This document shows positions 11,091 to 22,059 of a stretch of 43,595 nt of DNA, in pieces. The notes beneath the pieces were generated by a model that worked only from the letters and a program-made list of their open reading frames with translations, searched no databases and was not told the DNA's origin. Numbering within the stretch: the stretch's first letter is position 1; each line of letters starts with the position of its first letter. Source of the stretch: Candidatus Woesearchaeota archaeon (GTDB lineage: Archaea > Nanobdellota > Nanobdellia > Woesearchaeales > SKGA01); the NCBI GenBank assembly GCA_016926395.1, contig JAFGOT010000012.1, positions 1 to 43,595 of the forward strand, read 5' to 3'. The position numbers and the translations under genes are program-made.

Positions 11091-12065
11091 TTGGCAATGA
11101 ACTTAAATATAGATAGACCCATTGAAAGAGAAGAAGAAGACAAATTATATTATAATGAACTATATGCAGGAAAGCTAGAACAAATCATTTCTAAAAACAA
11201 AGATAAATGCATCAAAGTTGGACTATTTGCCAAGTTTGGATCTGGAAAAACAAGTACAATAAATATCCTGTGGCAAAGATTGAAGAACAAAAGAAAAGTA
11301 ACTTTAAAAAAGAAAAATAAACGATTCATCCATGTAAAATCATTATGGGATTATTCTCCCGAAGATATTCTAAAAAAAATTATTGTTTCAGTAGATAAAC
11401 AAGCAAATTTAAAACTCAATTTAAACAAAGAAATAAATTCTGAAACAACATATATAGATGAGAAAGAAAAACGAATCAACTTCTTAACATACATAACGAT
11501 TTCTCTTTTCGCATTAATTGGAATCTCATTAATCGGAAAAAACACTGCAACAATAAATATGAATAAACCTATTAATGATATTGCAACAGTGGCTCTGAGC
11601 CATTCAATGACAATACCAAGTGCAACACTCCAATTATTAATAGGTTTGATTACAACGGGCTTAGCAGTTATGTTTGCAGTTAACTCATTTAAGAAACAAA
11701 CTAGAAGACCTCCTTCTACAAGTTATGATTTTGAAGATTATTGGATACAAATTCTTAAAGCAGCAAATCAAAAAGGAATAAAAGAAATAACATTAGTAGT
11801 AGATGACTTAGATAGATGCAAACCAGAAATAGTAAATGGGATATTTGGAAAGCTAAATGCAATCGTTGAGCAAACGGAAGAAAGATCCAAAATAAGTATG
11901 AACTTAATAATTCCATTTTCACTAGCAGATTATTTATTAATCGATGGAGATAAAGAAATCGAACGACTAAAATTCAATTATAAAAAATTCTTTGATATAA
12001 TAATAGACATGCCAGAACTAGGACCATTAGAACTTCAGAGGTTAGATGAACATGAAAATAAGTGA
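11091..12065 (+). CDS. KAP-family P-loop NTPase, N-terminal portion with TM insertion
   Basis: Walker A GLFAKFGSGKTS, two TM helices between Walker A and B, Walker B ITLVVDDLDRC. Confidence 0.8.
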   Translation: MAMNLNIDRPIEREEEDKLYYNELYAGKLEQIISKNKDKCIKVGLFAKFGSGKTSTINILWQRLKNKRKVTLKKKNKRFIHVKSLWDYSPEDILKKIIVSVDKQANLKLNLNKEINSETTYIDEKEKRINFLTYITISLFALIGISLIGKNTATINMNKPINDIATVALSHSMTIPSATLQLLIGLITTGLAVMFAVNSFKKQTRRPPSTSYDFEDYWIQILKAANQKGIKEITLVVDDLDRCKPEIVNGIFGKLNAIVEQTEERSKISMNLIIPFSLADYLLIDGDKEIERLKFNYKKFFDIIIDMPELGPLELQRLDEHENK

Positions 12066-14576: not shown

Positions 14577-14602
14577 TTTATTCAAGTAGGAGATTCGAAC
14601 CT

Positions 14603-14809
14603 TTAAAGAAATGGTGACCCCAGGAGGGCCGGATTATTGACATCACGTCGAGGATGAACCTCTGAAATCCCAAAAAGAGCCACTTTCAACAGCTGATTGA
14701 TTGTCTTGGATATGTTCACACCTTGTTTTTTGAGGTTTTCGTGGGCCTCATAATCAAGATTAATATGTATCCTCACAGCTTTGTTTTTACTGTTCTTTTT
14801 TGGTCTCAT
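14603..14809 (-). CDS. Integrase N-terminal fragment (intN), RHH-like DNA-binding domain
   Basis: KAVRIHINLDYEAHENLKKQGVNISKTINQLLKVAL is RHH-like; the ORF runs into the att core as ...NPALLGSP, matching LLGSP in the intC frame. Confidence 0.8.
   Translation of the reverse strand: MRPKKNSKNKAVRIHINLDYEAHENLKKQGVNISKTINQLLKVALFGISEVHPRRDVNNPALLGSPFL
14611..14627. repeat. Distal att site (17-bp direct repeat)
   Basis: atggtgaccccaggagg, identical to 21981-21997. Confidence 0.9.
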
Positions 14810-14810
14810 T

Positions 14811-15119
14811 TTAATTATTAAGATGCTTTTCTAGTTCATCTACAAACTTATCAATGCATTTTCTAGCACCACCACCCCAAATATCATCTGAGGAAGCAGT
14901 AATATTTATGTCTGTTCCAGAATCATTAGGTCGTAAATCAATCCTAACTGGAACTCTTTGTAAACCGTATTTTGTTTTAAACTTCAAAGATTTTAAAGTT
15001 TTATTTGACTCAACATCTTTACCGATTGATTCAGCAACAGCAACAACTATATCAAAAACATTTGATAATTTTAAGTCAACAAATATACTTCGTTTAGATT
15101 CTCCAACCATAAAAAACAC
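14811..15119 (-). CDS. Hypothetical protein
   Basis: 102-aa ORF, directly upstream of intN. Confidence 0.55.
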   Translation of the reverse strand: MFFMVGESKRSIFVDLKLSNVFDIVVAVAESIGKDVESNKTLKSLKFKTKYGLQRVPVRIDLRPNDSGTDINITASSDDIWGGGARKCIDKFVDELEKHLNN

Positions 15120-15146
15120 CTAATTAGAAAAATAAAAAATAAAAAT

Positions 15147-16217
15147 CTATCTTAAAGTGATAGACGTTGAAGCAGTTGCTATAACTTTTGTTGAAACTCC
15201 TCGTTTAAGATTAACTTTCAAAGTATAACTTCCAGGAGGCAATGAATCCATACTATCATAACCAACATACGTTTCTTTGTAAACACCATCATAACCCACA
15301 GGAATTTCATCAAAGTCATAAGCATAAGTATCAATGTCTCTGCTTTTCACGGAATCCAATTTCATGATATAAAAATCAAAAGTAGGATTACTAAGAGGAA
15401 TTTCTCCAACATTCTTTATGCCAACTTTAACATAATCTAGGAAACATTCATCACTATAGCTATAACAAGTAGGATTATAATCAACAACACTCAATTCTAT
15501 TTCATGCTCCTTGTTTGCTAACTCTAATAATTCTTCCTCTTCTTTGATTTGTGATTTTAATACATCTCTTCGTTCAAAAATATCATAATCAAACAAATCA
15601 TTTATTTCGTCAAGCTGAGCATCATCAAAAGCATTTAGTCTTTCAAGTTCTGCTTTATCAAGTTCGATGATTTGGGAAAAAAGTTGTTTGTATTTGGTTT
15701 CATCAGATTCTTTATTCATCTGTTCCATCAAGTCTCCTCGATTAACATTCCATTCTCTTCGTTCATATCTATAATTTACAAATGCTTCTAGAAGAGCAGT
15801 ATCATAAGCTTCAGATAATTTAGCAACACTTCGGTTCATTTGATTAATTTTTGTTAAAATAGTATCAAAATTAATTAGGTCTCCCTCTTTGCTGTATTCC
15901 CAACTTTCTTCTTCCCAGTAACCCATAAACTTTTCAAACTCATCAGTTTCTTCAAGTTTAGCTTTAGCACAAGCATTAACTACTTTATCGCCTTGGTTTA
16001 GTTCCTTACATGAGGAGAATGCAGGACATTCAATATCCAAACAACAATTATCAGATGTTTCTCCAGTTTCAATAATTCCATTACCACATATTGCTTTTGC
16101 ACTAGATTTAGAAGACAAACCAGAATCTGTAGAATCACTCGTATCACTAATTGAACAAGCAGTGAACAAGAACATCACAGTCACTAAAATAGCCAAAATC
16201 ATCAATCTAAATTTCAT
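15147..16217 (-). CDS. Lipoprotein, hypothetical
   Basis: Lipobox MFLFTAC; CGNGIIETGETSDNCCLDIECP Cys-rich motif; coiled-coil region. Confidence 0.65.
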   Translation of the reverse strand: MKFRLMILAILVTVMFLFTACSISDTSDSTDSGLSSKSSAKAICGNGIIETGETSDNCCLDIECPAFSSCKELNQGDKVVNACAKAKLEETDEFEKFMGYWEEESWEYSKEGDLINFDTILTKINQMNRSVAKLSEAYDTALLEAFVNYRYERREWNVNRGDLMEQMNKESDETKYKQLFSQIIELDKAELERLNAFDDAQLDEINDLFDYDIFERRDVLKSQIKEEEELLELANKEHEIELSVVDYNPTCYSYSDECFLDYVKVGIKNVGEIPLSNPTFDFYIMKLDSVKSRDIDTYAYDFDEIPVGYDGVYKETYVGYDSMDSLPPGSYTLKVNLKRGVSTKVIATASTSITLR

Positions 16218-16253
16218 AATAAATCACCTATTTGGTTAATAGATTGTTAATAT

Positions 16254-16583
16254 TTGGTTATATATTTAAAAGTTACTATTTCAAGTATGAACACATATGC
16301 AGGAAGAAACATACCTCAACTAAATACTCAAATAGAGCTTATTTCATGGCTAAAACGTGGAAAGTATAGGCGGGATGTTTTTGAACAAGTTAAAGACAAA
16401 ACAACACCTGCAGAAATTGTTGCAAGATTATCCAAACAAAGAAAATCAAGTAGTGACTACGTGCAAGTTTCTAGAGCTTTGAGAGAATTAGAATTACAAG
16501 GACTAATTAAATGTTTAAACCCGAAAGAAAAAACTGGAGGACTATATGAGAAAACATCCAAAGGAACTAAAATAATTATTTGA
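16254..16583 (+). CDS. Winged-helix transcriptional regulator
   Basis: SRALRELELQGLIKCLNPKEKTGGLYEKTSKG recognition helix and wing pattern; true start likely at an internal ATG (MNTYAGR...). Confidence 0.7.
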   Translation: MVIYLKVTISSMNTYAGRNIPQLNTQIELISWLKRGKYRRDVFEQVKDKTTPAEIVARLSKQRKSSSDYVQVSRALRELELQGLIKCLNPKEKTGGLYEKTSKGTKIII

Positions 16584-16816
16584 GTTTCATAACACATCAC
16601 TTCTTTGTGAATTATGATTTCTATATAATCAAATTTTCAAAAACCGTGGAAAATAAGTTAACAAATAAAAAGAACTTTCTTCAAAAAACCGAAGGGAGGT
16701 AGTGCTTTTTCCTCACACTATTATTTGCATAAAACCGAGTAGGCTCACATTTTTGAGATTCAATTTTTTGAACGGAACAACAAAAGATTTATAATATATA
16801 TAAAATAAATTAAATC

Positions 16817-17089
16817 ATGGTTAAACAAACTATGAAATCTGAAAATTTAATCTATATTTTTAGATTACTAGGTATGTTAATCATCACAGTAATTATGAGA
16901 TGTTTGTTCAGCAAAACCAACCAAGAATTTTATGATTACATATCCTATGTGTTTTCAATAGGGATATTATTATTAATATTATTACCAAATCTTCATGAGT
17001 TTAAATTTTGGGGAATTAGTGCAAAAGGAAATAATCAACAAATAGACGACACAACTAAAATAATATTGGTGAACGAAAATGGCAAATAA
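16817..17089 (+). CDS. Small membrane protein
   Basis: Two hydrophobic helices; overlaps the next ORF. Confidence 0.5.
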   Translation: MVKQTMKSENLIYIFRLLGMLIITVIMRCLFSKTNQEFYDYISYVFSIGILLLILLPNLHEFKFWGISAKGNNQQIDDTTKIILVNENGK

Positions 17090-17405
17090 AATAAATTTTA
17101 AAGAAGGAAGTATTAATTTTTGGATTCCGGAAAACGTATTTGACTTTGACGATAACCAAACACACATACTAGTAAATCAAGGAAATTTAGAAGGCTCAAT
17201 ATTTATTGTTAAGGATGGGGATAATAAACTTAAATTCTTTCATGTATTGCTTGGCAAAGGAAGAACAGATGTTGTTATAGATGTACAAGAGTTATTAAAA
17301 AGTGAAAAACACATGATTACTGCAACGTGGAGCATAAGTAAAAAAGAAATCAATCTTTACATTGATGGTGGGAAAAAACACAACACTACCAAAATAACGT
17401 ATTAA
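17079..17405 (+). CDS. LamG/concanavalin-like domain protein
   Basis: GSINFWIPENVF...GSIFIVKDGDNKLKFF...HMITATWSISKKEINLYIDGGKKHN pattern. Confidence 0.55.
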   Translation: MANKINFKEGSINFWIPENVFDFDDNQTHILVNQGNLEGSIFIVKDGDNKLKFFHVLLGKGRTDVVIDVQELLKSEKHMITATWSISKKEINLYIDGGKKHNTTKITY

Positions 17406-18850
17406 TCACAACTGACAACCGGTTTAAAACCTAATTTTTCTTCGTATTTTTCTATCATTAAATTCATAACTTCTTCTTGATGCGAAATCCCAACCATGAC
17501 TGAATCATGAATAGGAATTGCAGGAATATTTTTTGTTACTAACTCATCTAAAATTTCCAACATTATTGATGAATCTTCAAATTGTAAATCTAAACCAACT
17601 CCGGTAAAGAAAAATTCTTCAATATTTGGATGTGCTGTTCTAAATGCAGAGATTATTTCCCTTATTCTTACGTGTGTACTAATCTCATCGCCAAATTCTT
17701 CCTTTAGTTCATGATTAGAACCAAACTCTCTTGCTATTGCTTTTATTGCAGACTCTTCATCGCCACTATTGAGCATAATATTTGTTACTGCTTTGTTTAG
17801 TTTTCTTGTTCCTTCATCTCCAAAAGAATAAAGGTCTGTTTCAGAAGGATAAATATTTTTTCTATGATAAAGCATACGCAAATGCAATGTGCTATAATCA
17901 GGTTCAACGACAGATTCATCATTAATTTTTATTTCATGACGAATAACTTTTGGCAAACCTTGAACCTCACTTCCATACAATCGACCACCTTTTGTAAAGC
18001 TTGATTGATTAAATACACGTTTGATTGATAAGTGTCTTAATGAAATCGTATGAGTAAAGGGGTAATAGTTATTTACTAGTGAATCTAATATCTCATTTCG
18101 TGTGGTAGTCTGTGAATCATATCGTATATAACGTGAATCTGTATTGAAATGAGTGTATAGATGAATCCGTGTATTAAACAATAACTGCGAGTAATCTTCG
18201 TCATTCATCTGAACCGTGACTTGTTGATTTAAAATGAATTCATTGTATCTTTGAATTTTTCTCCTCATCTCATCAAGTTCAGGAGTATTTTCATAGTCAA
18301 CTAATTTTTTATGTTCATCTTTTAACTGAATAGGTTCAACAAAACCAGAATCATCAATATCCAAAGCATCGTTAGAAGAAAACCGTGGAAGTAAATTTCT
18401 AAGTTTAGTCATAGAATCAACACGAGAGTACCTTGATTTATTTGCAAAGCTAAAACCTTTCGCAGAAAGAATAAGATAATCAGTTTCAATTAATTTTTTT
18501 ATTATTGATTCAATAACAATGTTGTAAGTAAAAAATTTAGGGACATAACGAGAACGCTTATCAGAGTAATAATTTTTATTGAACGAAACTGCAACTGGAC
18601 GTTCACAACGCCAAGCAAGAAAAAAATTAGTCAGTATACAATTAAGGGCACTACGTTTAAGTTCTTGTTGATAACCTGAAGACAAGCCAAGTTCATCAAA
18701 CAAAGTATCAACAACAGAAACAAAGTTTTCATCATCAGAATAAGAACGATAATTTAAACGACGAGCACTATCAAAATATAAAGCCTCAAAATGTTTTTGT
18801 TGCAAATCTAAAAGAGATTGCTCTTCCTCAAAATCAAATTGCCAATCCAT
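17402..18850 (-). CDS. Putative nucleic-acid polymerase with family A-like palm motifs
   Basis: Motif A-like VVEPDYSTLHLRMLYH; possible motif B RKLNKAVTNIMLN; motif C-like IPAIPIHDSVMVG. Confidence 0.65.
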   Translation of the reverse strand: MDWQFDFEEEQSLLDLQQKHFEALYFDSARRLNYRSYSDDENFVSVVDTLFDELGLSSGYQQELKRSALNCILTNFFLAWRCERPVAVSFNKNYYSDKRSRYVPKFFTYNIVIESIIKKLIETDYLILSAKGFSFANKSRYSRVDSMTKLRNLLPRFSSNDALDIDDSGFVEPIQLKDEHKKLVDYENTPELDEMRRKIQRYNEFILNQQVTVQMNDEDYSQLLFNTRIHLYTHFNTDSRYIRYDSQTTTRNEILDSLVNNYYPFTHTISLRHLSIKRVFNQSSFTKGGRLYGSEVQGLPKVIRHEIKINDESVVEPDYSTLHLRMLYHRKNIYPSETDLYSFGDEGTRKLNKAVTNIMLNSGDEESAIKAIAREFGSNHELKEEFGDEISTHVRIREIISAFRTAHPNIEEFFFTGVGLDLQFEDSSIMLEILDELVTKNIPAIPIHDSVMVGISHQEEVMNLMIEKYEEKLGFKPVVSCD

Positions 18851-20891
18851 TTTGTAATTCTTCCAACTCTTTTTTTGTTTGTTCTAATTCAGCTCTCTTG
18901 TGTGGATGTTGCTTAACATCATATTCAAGAGTTTTTAGTTTTTTTGTTAACTTTTCAATATTTTCTTTTTTAGTTATTTCTGCTTGACAATCAGCACATA
19001 ATTCGTTTCCTAATGAACAATAACTACATTTTGAACATGAATGATGGTACTTAACAAAAATCTTTAACAACATTTGTTTATCTAAGTAAATGAATTGTTT
19101 TTTTGCTCGATGACATAAACGATTACACTCAGCGCGAGTTTGTTCTAAAACTGGCTTTGGTGATGCAACAACAACAATTTCTGATTCACTATCACTAACA
19201 CACCTTGCAACTTGTCTGATAATTGTTCTTGAAAAGTCCGTATTACTTGATGAGTCCCTCATAGATTTAAGTACAAAACTTGTTAATACGCGTTTATCAT
19301 CAATGTGCAAGTATCCTTCTGCATCGGTTATTTCTGCAGGACCGTGAGGATTTGGTGTCACACCCAAAATAGAACAGATTATTTCAGTTAAATCTTGAAT
19401 ATCATCTTTGTTTGGAGCAAGATTTTTATCTTCATAATAATTATCAAGTGCACTAGAAATGTTATTAAGATGACGAATACCATATTTTGTTTCTGTTGCA
19501 TCAATATTAAATTCTTTAATTGCTTCATAATTATATGTAGGTCTAGTAATTGTCAACTCATCATTTAAAAAACTTAAAACAGGTAAATTTGTTTGACCAA
19601 ATTCTCTTGCCACAACTCGTTTATCATCACTATTAAAGAAAAATAATTGCACTTTATCAACGTCAGCAATATCGCCTTTCCAATTACAAGAATCACACAC
19701 TAAAGAGTCATCTTCTCTTGAAAGAAACGACTTACATTGAGGACACAAAAAATCTGTTTGCTTCATCAATATCCCTTTATCATACAAAATATCCAACATA
19801 TATAATATTGATTGTATCTTTTCGTTATTACTTGAAAATTGACCATCAAGTTTATCAAAGAAAATTAACTTAAGGAGAGATAATGCATTTTTATAATAAT
19901 TAGGTCTTTCATTATTGAAATCTGATAAGGACAACTCTTCAGGAAGAGGAAATTCTTTTAATTCTACATAATCTTCAAAAATGTCTTCAATAAGTTTTGT
20001 TAATACTTCAACCTCATCAAGAGCAACTTTTCTTCTGAAAAAAATTCTTCCCTCATCTCGGTTAATACCACAATTTAATTTGAAATCATCAAGAATATGT
20101 TCTGCATAAAGACTGACTTCCGCTCCAACTTCTAATGCTGAACGATAAATTGTACTCATCATAAGATTTCCTTCAAACCTTGATGTTAATCGTTCAGAAC
20201 CAACGTCATCACCATTCAAAATGTGAATGGAACAGCTAGATAATCGATTTGATTTTTCCTTCCAGAGTTTTATTTGAGTATCATGAAATCGTAAGATAAG
20301 AAAATCAATATCAAAAACAGAAGAGAATAAATCTTTAACTTCATCTGCTAAATCCATATTTTTTGTAATAGCAAAAAATAATGAAGTTCCTTCAACATGA
20401 ATAAATAAACAGGAATCTAAAAACTCAACTTCTTTATTATTTCCTTTCTTATCTTTATAGGTAAATACACCCAAGGAATCATATTCAAAAATTCTAAAAA
20501 TTCCTTTTTGATAAATTCTTCTTAAAACAGGTTCATCATCACTCAGTTCATCAGTATCGCGTAAATTAGCTAAAGCATCATCATCAAGGTCAACCATAGA
20601 AGATAAATTATTCTCAACTATTTTTTCATTAATATGCTCCACATACGAATCAACAACAGAAGTAGACCGATAAAGATAAAGCGTTATAGGCCCTTCAAAA
20701 ATACAAATTTCTTTCAACCAATCGACATCTGCATCTGAAAGAGAATTGACTAATTCAATACGTAAATCTTGTGCTTTTTTTGTTGGAGTCCGTTTAATTT
20801 CATACTTATCCAAAAATAAATCAAGTAAACGTGTGGGAACATATTCATCTAAGAACCGCTCCACTTCATCAGTGTCATAAGTCTCTACCAT
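18834..20891 (-). CDS. Large Cys-cluster protein of unknown function, possible replication or nuclease partner
   Basis: Zinc ribbon CPQCKSFLSREDDSLVCDSC; C-terminal CSKCSYCSLGNELCADC; start of the polymerase-like ORF overlaps its end by 17 bp. Confidence 0.6.
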   Translation of the reverse strand: MVETYDTDEVERFLDEYVPTRLLDLFLDKYEIKRTPTKKAQDLRIELVNSLSDADVDWLKEICIFEGPITLYLYRSTSVVDSYVEHINEKIVENNLSSMVDLDDDALANLRDTDELSDDEPVLRRIYQKGIFRIFEYDSLGVFTYKDKKGNNKEVEFLDSCLFIHVEGTSLFFAITKNMDLADEVKDLFSSVFDIDFLILRFHDTQIKLWKEKSNRLSSCSIHILNGDDVGSERLTSRFEGNLMMSTIYRSALEVGAEVSLYAEHILDDFKLNCGINRDEGRIFFRRKVALDEVEVLTKLIEDIFEDYVELKEFPLPEELSLSDFNNERPNYYKNALSLLKLIFFDKLDGQFSSNNEKIQSILYMLDILYDKGILMKQTDFLCPQCKSFLSREDDSLVCDSCNWKGDIADVDKVQLFFFNSDDKRVVAREFGQTNLPVLSFLNDELTITRPTYNYEAIKEFNIDATETKYGIRHLNNISSALDNYYEDKNLAPNKDDIQDLTEIICSILGVTPNPHGPAEITDAEGYLHIDDKRVLTSFVLKSMRDSSSNTDFSRTIIRQVARCVSDSESEIVVVASPKPVLEQTRAECNRLCHRAKKQFIYLDKQMLLKIFVKYHHSCSKCSYCSLGNELCADCQAEITKKENIEKLTKKLKTLEYDVKQHPHKRAELEQTKKELEELQNGLAI

Positions 20892-21081
20892 AGTGTTACA
20901 ATATATAGGTTGTATTTATTCATTTCGAATACTTGGCCAAAACAAGGATAAAAAACAGCAAAATTGGACAAAAAAATCAACCCTTATTAAACGAGACATA
21001 TAACATGTAATGTTAACACAGAACCATTCTAAGCAATGTGTAAACACAATACGCAACATACCAATAATAGGACTAATTCCC

Positions 21082-21996
21082 TTAACTAATACTATTTGAT
21101 GCTGTTTTCTCCTTAAGCAGTAATACCTCACTAAGTTTCTTTGCAACTTGCTTATACCAAAACTCTGCTTGTTGATTTTTAGCTAAATAATGATTTGCTC
21201 CAATACTGTTTGAAGCACGGCCTTGTATAAAATCTGCTACTCCTTCCGGTACTCCATTATACAGTAAAAAGTTATATTGCCACTTACGAAGATACTTAGC
21301 ATTAAACGTAGCTTTTTTGTTATATACATCTTGTAATCTGTTATTACTTCCAGTTATTCTTTTCAGTTTCTCATAAACAAATAATGGTAAAAAGACTGTG
21401 TTAATATTCTTAGTTTTACGATTATTAGCAACCGAGTATGACACAAAACCGTCGTTTATCTTAAACTTATTAACATCAAACGTTTTTAAGAAATCTAAAC
21501 ATTCAACAAAACGGATTCCTGATGTAGCAAGTATCAAAAATATCAGTTCTAAATCTTCGTTTTCTTTAAGAGCCGTATAACAACTTAACACATCTTCATT
21601 ACTCGGAACATAATAATCATTACCATCCCTACCTAACTTCAAAACCTTACGATAACGCACCAATACATCGTCTTCAAGCAACTCCAACTCTTCACAGAAG
21701 TTTAGATATACCCTACAAGCTTTAACCTTATTTCGTCTTCCTGACGGTTCTGATACAATATATTGACTAAGTTCGAACGGACTATCAAAGGACTTATCTC
21801 TAAAGAATCTGTTAAAATAAGAACGAATTCCTTTAACGTAACCAGTACCGAATTTAGTACTAAGCCAAGAGATAAAATCATCTCCTCTAACAAAATTTAG
21901 GCAGTTAACGTGGGCCTCTTTGTGATGCTCATTTTGAGAATTAAGAGTTTCAACAGCTCTCCGTGATGAATGAGAAATATATGGTGACCCCAGGAG
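21082..21996 (-). CDS. Tyrosine integrase C-terminal fragment (intC)
   Basis: Catalytic-type motifs ATSGIRFVECLDF, KYLRKWQ, IQGRASNSIGANHYL. By-eye extension of the track ORF (21082-21687) stays open to the att core without ATG/GTG: ...LLGSPYISHSSRRAVETLNSQNEHHKEAHVNCLNFVRGDDFISWLSTKFGTGYVKGIRSYFNRFF... Confidence 0.85.
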   Translation of the reverse strand, partial: LLGSPYISHSSRRAVETLNSQNEHHKEAHVNCLNFVRGDDFISWLSTKFGTGYVKGIRSYFNRFFRDKSFDSPFELSQYIVSEPSGRRNKVKACRVYLNFCEELELLEDDVLVRYRKVLKLGRDGNDYYVPSNEDVLSCYTALKENEDLELIFLILATSGIRFVECLDFLKTFDVNKFKINDGFVSYSVANNRKTKNINTVFLPLFVYEKLKRITGSNNRLQDVYNKKATFNAKYLRKWQYNFLLYNGVPEGVADFIQGRASNSIGANHYLAKNQQAEFWYKQVAKKLSEVLLLKEKTASNSIS

Positions 21997-21997
21997 G
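21981..21997. repeat. tRNA-proximal att site (17-bp direct repeat)
   Basis: atggtgaccccaggagg spans the tRNA-Arg 3' end. Confidence 0.9.
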
Positions 21998-22059
21998 ATT
22001 CGAACCCCCGACCTGCCGGTCCGAAGCCGGCCGCTCTATCCAAGCTAAGCCATGGGGCC
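21982..22059 (-). tRNA. tRNA-Arg (anticodon TCG), CCA encoded
   Basis: Cloverleaf by eye: GGCCCCA/TGGGGTC acceptor, GCTT/GAGC D-stem, GCCGG-CTTCGGA-CCGGC anticodon arm, GGGGG-TTCGAAT-CCTCC T-arm, CCA. Confidence 0.95.

Follow-up and report, generated by a model that had tools for sequence, protein, structure and literature searches.

By analyzing a window of 43,595 nucleotides that constitutes one whole contig of a Woesearchaeal genome assembly, we found a 7.4-kb element bordered by two copies of an att-like repeat, one of them at the end of a tRNA-Arg(TCG) gene, with an integrase gene cut in two at this very repeat. Seven sister elements with the same organization are present in the order of the host, and two genomes of the same genus lack the element. 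We are highly confident in the explanation as a whole, that is a plasmid-like element integrated by a self-split integrase, probably releasable in trans and equipped with a likely replication module made of a divergent family-A-like polymerase (divPolA2) and a 685-aa protein.

Att repeats, tRNA target and integrase frame

Two exact copies of the 17-bp repeat ATGGTGACCCCAGGAGG, and no others, were found in the window, on the plus strand at 14611–14627 and 21981–21997, which gives an element of 7,370 bp from core to core. Given that only 0.01 matches are expected by chance with up to three mismatches allowed, and that the core has no further exact copy anywhere in the 1.02-Mb assembly, we could rule out a chance repeat. 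The attL-like copy (21981–21997) comprises, besides one extra base, the 3' end of an intact tRNA-Arg(TCG) (21982–22059, minus strand), the sole tRNA found by ARAGORN and the candidate integration target, while the distal, attR-like copy (14611–14627) lies within the end of the 5' half of the integrase gene, int(N). Both the coordinates and ARAGORN thus agree with the initial annotation, which had described this repeat and its position at the end of an intact tRNA gene. As for SSV-type (suicidal) archaeal integrases, the target tRNA gene stays intact, but the core is short compared to the 40–50 bp usual for them.

No further att-like copy was found in the left flank of the element. Just outside attR, the minus strand of 14586–14602 reads GGTTCGAATCTCCT, which resembles the T-arm of tRNA-Arg minus one base and is perhaps a remnant of an earlier integration. 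Also, the AT-rich stretch to the left of the element (9.0–14.3 kb, 24–29% GC) harbours an ORF (11091–12065) with a P-loop resembling QatA/PifA-type KAP ATPases (PADLOC, 3e-9; NCBIfam QatA, 1e-8), possibly an older island or a defence gene.

The ORF corresponding to int(N) (14603–14809, minus strand, 68 aa) encodes a CcdA/ribbon-helix-helix (RHH)-like N-terminal domain and ends as ...NPALLGSPFL*, in line with the translation proposed initially; up to the core, it provides residues 1–66 of the joined integrase. The other half, int(C) (21082–21997, minus strand), encodes the core-binding and catalytic part, has no ATG or GTG start at its head and remains open upstream through the other repeat copy as ...RILLGSPYISHSSRRAVE, again as first read. 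When the two halves are joined at the core, they form a single in-frame ORF without stop that starts at the ATG at 14809 and counts exactly 365 codons, the length that had been estimated.

The joined protein also turned out to have the integrase similarity that the initial annotation had put forward as a check. In Pfam it matches Phage_integr_3 (PF16795, E = 1.7e-39, 135.7 bits for a cut-off of 27), in PHROGs the integrase family phrog_5127 (3e-42, residues 35–353), and in the PDB only the catalytic domains of SSV1-type integrases (3vcf, 4dks and 3uxu), which align to residues 188–349 including the tyrosine region. Its N-terminal 45 residues resemble an RHH DNA-binding domain. The CcdA family (PF07362) scores above its cut-off in the integrases of two sister elements (G044 and G016) and in one Archaeoglobaceae integrase; the match is weak in the window (E = 0.018, sub-threshold), in a third sister (G096) and in the plasmids pT26-2 and pGE2.

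Sister elements and resemblance to pT26-2 integrases

The host is a DPANN archaeon, as had been guessed from the sequence; the genomes of its order are deposited as Candidatus Woesearchaeota, and one as Nanoarchaeota. Among the 353 genomes of the order, PF16795 is matched at E ≤ 0.001 in 29 and at the family cut-off in 18, and 14 have matches below 1e-20; outside the order, an evenly drawn sample of 371 genomes from the phylum gave nothing better than 6e-7. Eight complete elements, including that of the window, could be delimited by att repeats, all in this one order. Besides the window element (tRNA-Arg TCG, 17-bp att, 7.4 kb), they are associated with tRNA-Glu (G044; 29 bp, 11.1 kb), with tRNA-Phe twice (G096; 69 bp, 6.8 kb, and G007; 39 bp, 8.7 kb), with tRNA-Leu twice (G045; 24 + 16 bp with one mismatch between, 7.0 kb, and G159; 72 bp, 9.7 kb), with an intron-containing tRNA whose identity ARAGORN gave inconsistently (G016; 41 bp, 15.4 kb) and, in antisense, with tRNA-Thr (G274; 62 bp, 5.9 kb).

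In the window and in the seven sisters alike, the att site lies inside the integrase gene, which is divided into int(N) and int(C). All eight genes join in frame, without stop, across an att repeat of 17–72 bp overlapping a tRNA gene, and all eight joined integrases gain an RHH-like N-terminus; with random frames, eight in-frame junctions would have a probability of (1/3)^8, about 1.5e-4, the absence of stops not yet counted. The tRNA linker translated within the integrase differs in sequence between elements and therefore tolerates change, a tolerance also reported for the pT26-2 family in a 2021 review (PMC8371274). The seven sister elements show that self-splitting integration is a recurrent system in this Woesearchaeal order. 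As for cargo, the G044 element (L034, 14604–17719) carries a type I restriction-modification methylase and a specificity subunit, with an RmuC-like gene adjoining.

Then, we looked at two genomes of the same genus (G001 and G002), in which no homologue of the integrase or of the polymerase was found. Both keep tRNA-Arg(TCG), with the 17-bp core intact in G001 and carrying one mismatch in G002. The gene order around this tRNA is rearranged in both; they therefore document that the element is absent, but do not provide a cleanly syntenic empty site. The sister genomes called for by the initial annotation thus exist, with an intact tRNA-Arg and without the element, although strict synteny does not hold. 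In G001 (L043), downstream of the tRNA (18898–18975), two degenerate tandem copies of the 3' part of tRNA-Arg stand about 78 bp apart, perhaps scars left by earlier events at this gene.

In a tree of 36 integrase catalytic parts, the eight Woesearchaeal integrases form a single clade (100/100) with a long stem. This clade lies on one side of the tree with pT26-2, Archaeoglobi and Thermoplasmatota, the node joining it to them being unresolved, and is split from the fuselloviruses (SSV) with 96/96. A fuselloviral origin could be rejected on both the tree placement and the N-terminal domain, which is RHH-like with no PF07935. The SSV7 integrase does begin with PF07935, and neither this N-terminus nor a place in the fusellovirus clade, the marks of Fuselloviridae SSV integrases proper, was found here. 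Fusellovirus structural genes were not recognised in the window element either. What is shared with SSV1, SSV7 and pSSVi is the self-partitioning logic, and among solved structures the catalytic domain of SSV1 comes closest by sequence. The designation as an SSV-type partitioned integrase thus stands for the self-splitting, PF16795 and the SSV1 structure matches, whereas the N-terminus and the side of the tree are those of pT26-2 and not fuselloviral.

With the pT26-2 family (the Thermococcales plasmids pT26-2 and pGE2, Archaeoglobi, Methanosarcina), the Woesearchaeal integrases share the PF16795 catalytic domain, the RHH/CcdA-like N-terminus (weak in the window, above cut-off in two sisters), the translation of tRNA 3' sequence within the integrase and the side of the tree. 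The joined protein of the window aligns with the integrases of pT26-2 and pGE2 from residue 8 or 2 to 345–346, that is over 93–95% of the length. In these circular plasmids, the RHH-like region, the tRNA-derived linker and the catalytic domain are encoded by one continuous, unsplit ORF. However, identity is only 28–29%, the Woesearchaeal integrases make up a separate long-stemmed clade, the host belongs to DPANN and the cargo here comprises divPolA2 and the 685-aa gene. One more locus (L146, in G335 C97) encodes an unsplit 346-aa integrase that has an RHH-like N-terminus but lacks a tRNA-like linker and may be a non-suicidal relative.

Polymerase and other cargo genes

The ORF at 17402–18850 (minus strand) encodes a 482-aa divergent family-A-like polymerase that matches phrog_4756 with E = 2.4e-50. 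Similar proteins are encoded in 280 phage records, most of them Vibrio and Rheinheimera phages. An alignment of eight members revealed as invariant D318, H323, R349, K353, N361 and H448-D449-S450. We take D318 to be the motif A aspartate and H448-D449 the motif C HD of family A polymerases; H323 presumably occupies the steric-gate position, with His instead of Glu, R349 and K353 would be the O-helix Arg and Lys, and N361 would sit at the conserved O-helix Tyr position, with Asn here. A PDB search with the sequence was unsuccessful, and a structure was needed: the predicted palm/fingers part (residues about 300–482, pLDDT mostly 70–92) matched PolA structures in Foldseek with a probability of 1.0, and the top viral structural match of the model was a Rheinheimera Barba phage protein. 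Sequence and predicted fold both match the divPolA2 of barbaviruses, with motifs A, B and C conserved, and on these grounds the predicted product is the divPolA2 of Yutin et al. 2024 (PMC11348598). That study describes divPolA2 by structure prediction from tailed phages including barbaviruses, with either a DNA polymerase for repair or an RNA polymerase as its proposed role (PMC11348598). The phage proteins of phrog_4756, from barbaviruses and other tailed phages, resemble the window protein in size, palm/fingers motifs and predicted structure, and likewise have an unrelated N-terminal domain. In barbaviruses divPolA2 accompanies a regular PolB (PMC11348598), whereas in this small archaeal element no other polymerase was recognised.

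Two of the eight complete elements (window and G096) encode divPolA2, and further copies were found in three other genomes of the order (G179, G350 and G038). The remaining complete elements have other genes in its place, such as a DnaG-zinc-ribbon and AAA_25 protein in G044. At two loci (L138, 2152–3330, and L139, 1949–3133), divPolA2-like genes stand alone among chromosomal genes, with no integrase nearby and with ribosomal protein and tRNA-synthetase/methyltransferase genes as neighbours. Viral contigs were scanned with the polymerases of the window and of G096 and with the integrase alignment, and no relatives were found.

The polymerase gene is overlapped by that of a 685-aa orphan (18834–20891, minus strand) with zinc-finger-like CxxC motifs and a C-terminal coiled coil. 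No clear homologue was found in Pfam, NCBIfam, PADLOC, phage and plasmid tblastn searches or 145 relatives, the only match being a weak one to phrog_17187 (E = 5e-4), and a single-sequence structure model was unusable (pLDDT 39). On the plus strand lie ORFs for a 109-aa winged-helix-like regulator with weak matches (16254–16583), a 90-aa predicted membrane protein with hydrophobic segments visible by inspection (16817–17089) and a 108-aa protein with weak, below-cut-off LamG/concanavalin-like similarity (17079–17405). The minus strand further encodes a 356-aa lipoprotein, predicted by inspection of its signal peptide (...FLFTAC; 15147–16217), and a 102-aa ORF (orf102, 14811–15119) that ends 1 bp before the start codon of int(N). 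In the circle, orf102, the integrase, the 685-aa gene and the polymerase would all point in the same direction.

Integration model, alternatives and implications

According to the model given in the 2021 review, integration into a tRNA gene costs the element its intact integrase gene, and excision takes place when a related intact integrase is supplied, as demonstrated for SSV2 and, using the integrase of pTN3, for TKV4 (PMC8371274). As judged from its sequence, the anatomy of the window element fits each step of this model. The circular form would carry one integrase gene, with the 3' end of tRNA-Arg(TCG) contained in its 5' part as attP. The integrase, composed of the RHH-like N-terminus, a core-binding region and the PF16795 tyrosine-recombinase domain, would recombine attP with the chromosomal tRNA gene; integration would regenerate the tRNA and split the integrase, leaving int(N) at one end and int(C) beside the tRNA. 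With its integrase split, the element would be locked in, and its release would probably need an intact related integrase in trans. Finally, we infer that divPolA2 and the overlapping 685-aa gene likely form an autonomous replication module.

A reading without any split, in which int(C) would be a complete integrase starting from a TTG and ORF 14603–14809 an independent RHH regulator beside attR, draws on the stop codon with which int(N) closes after the core, on its resemblance to a small protein of the RHH/CcdA kind, and on ApPV1, where a lone RHH gene adjoins a short integrase annotation. We hold it to be very improbable, given the stop-free in-frame junctions of all eight complete elements, the single ORF that encodes all three parts in pT26-2 and pGE2, and the alignment of the joined protein to these two integrases nearly from end to end. 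A provirus, some of whose ORFs would be structural proteins of a small virus, also seems rather improbable. Related split integrases do exist in fuselloviruses, guttaviruses and Archaeoglobus pleolipoviruses, and the element has a membrane ORF and a lipoprotein, but searches of PHROGs and Pfam assigned none of its ORFs to a structural family of viruses, neither the integrase alignment nor the window polymerase found anything in viral contigs, and the polymerase, the 685-aa gene and the integrase take up most of the 7.4 kb.

The integrated plasmid-like element that we favour could also be a dead relic, once mobile and now fixed, unable to leave or to replicate. Suicidal integration indeed locks elements in, and integrated relatives of pT26-2 tend to lose their replication ability (PMC6972569). 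We nevertheless consider this unlikely: the att cores are identical, both integrase halves and all larger ORFs are open, the polymerase retains its catalytic residues, and the element is missing from close relatives and is therefore recent.

Suicidal integrases are described as an archaeal speciality in the 2021 review, which types them in Sulfolobales, Desulfurococcales, Thermococcales, Archaeoglobales and Methanosarcinales and whose main text does not mention DPANN (PMC8371274). Our literature search for suicidal integrases in DPANN found none, although its coverage was incomplete and an earlier notice is possible. Suicidal integration, known mainly from heat-loving archaea, is thus found here in a Woesearchaeal (DPANN) order. 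The eight elements in one order are natural replicates for the study of persistence, tRNA target switching and the swapping of int(N) and int(C), and they open an approach to gene transfer in archaea that are small, reduced and probably host-dependent. In addition, the presence in two of the eight of divPolA2, reported until now only from viruses of bacteria, connects this orphan family of phage polymerases with a compact archaeal element, in which its function should be easier to test. To our knowledge, family A polymerases are otherwise hardly found in archaea. Tentatively, and with some doubt, divPolA2 could, with the orphan 685-aa protein as its partner, either replicate the element itself or act as a single-subunit RNA polymerase; if true, archaea would have a minimal replication system based on family A, which would also bear on the role of divPolA2 in phages.
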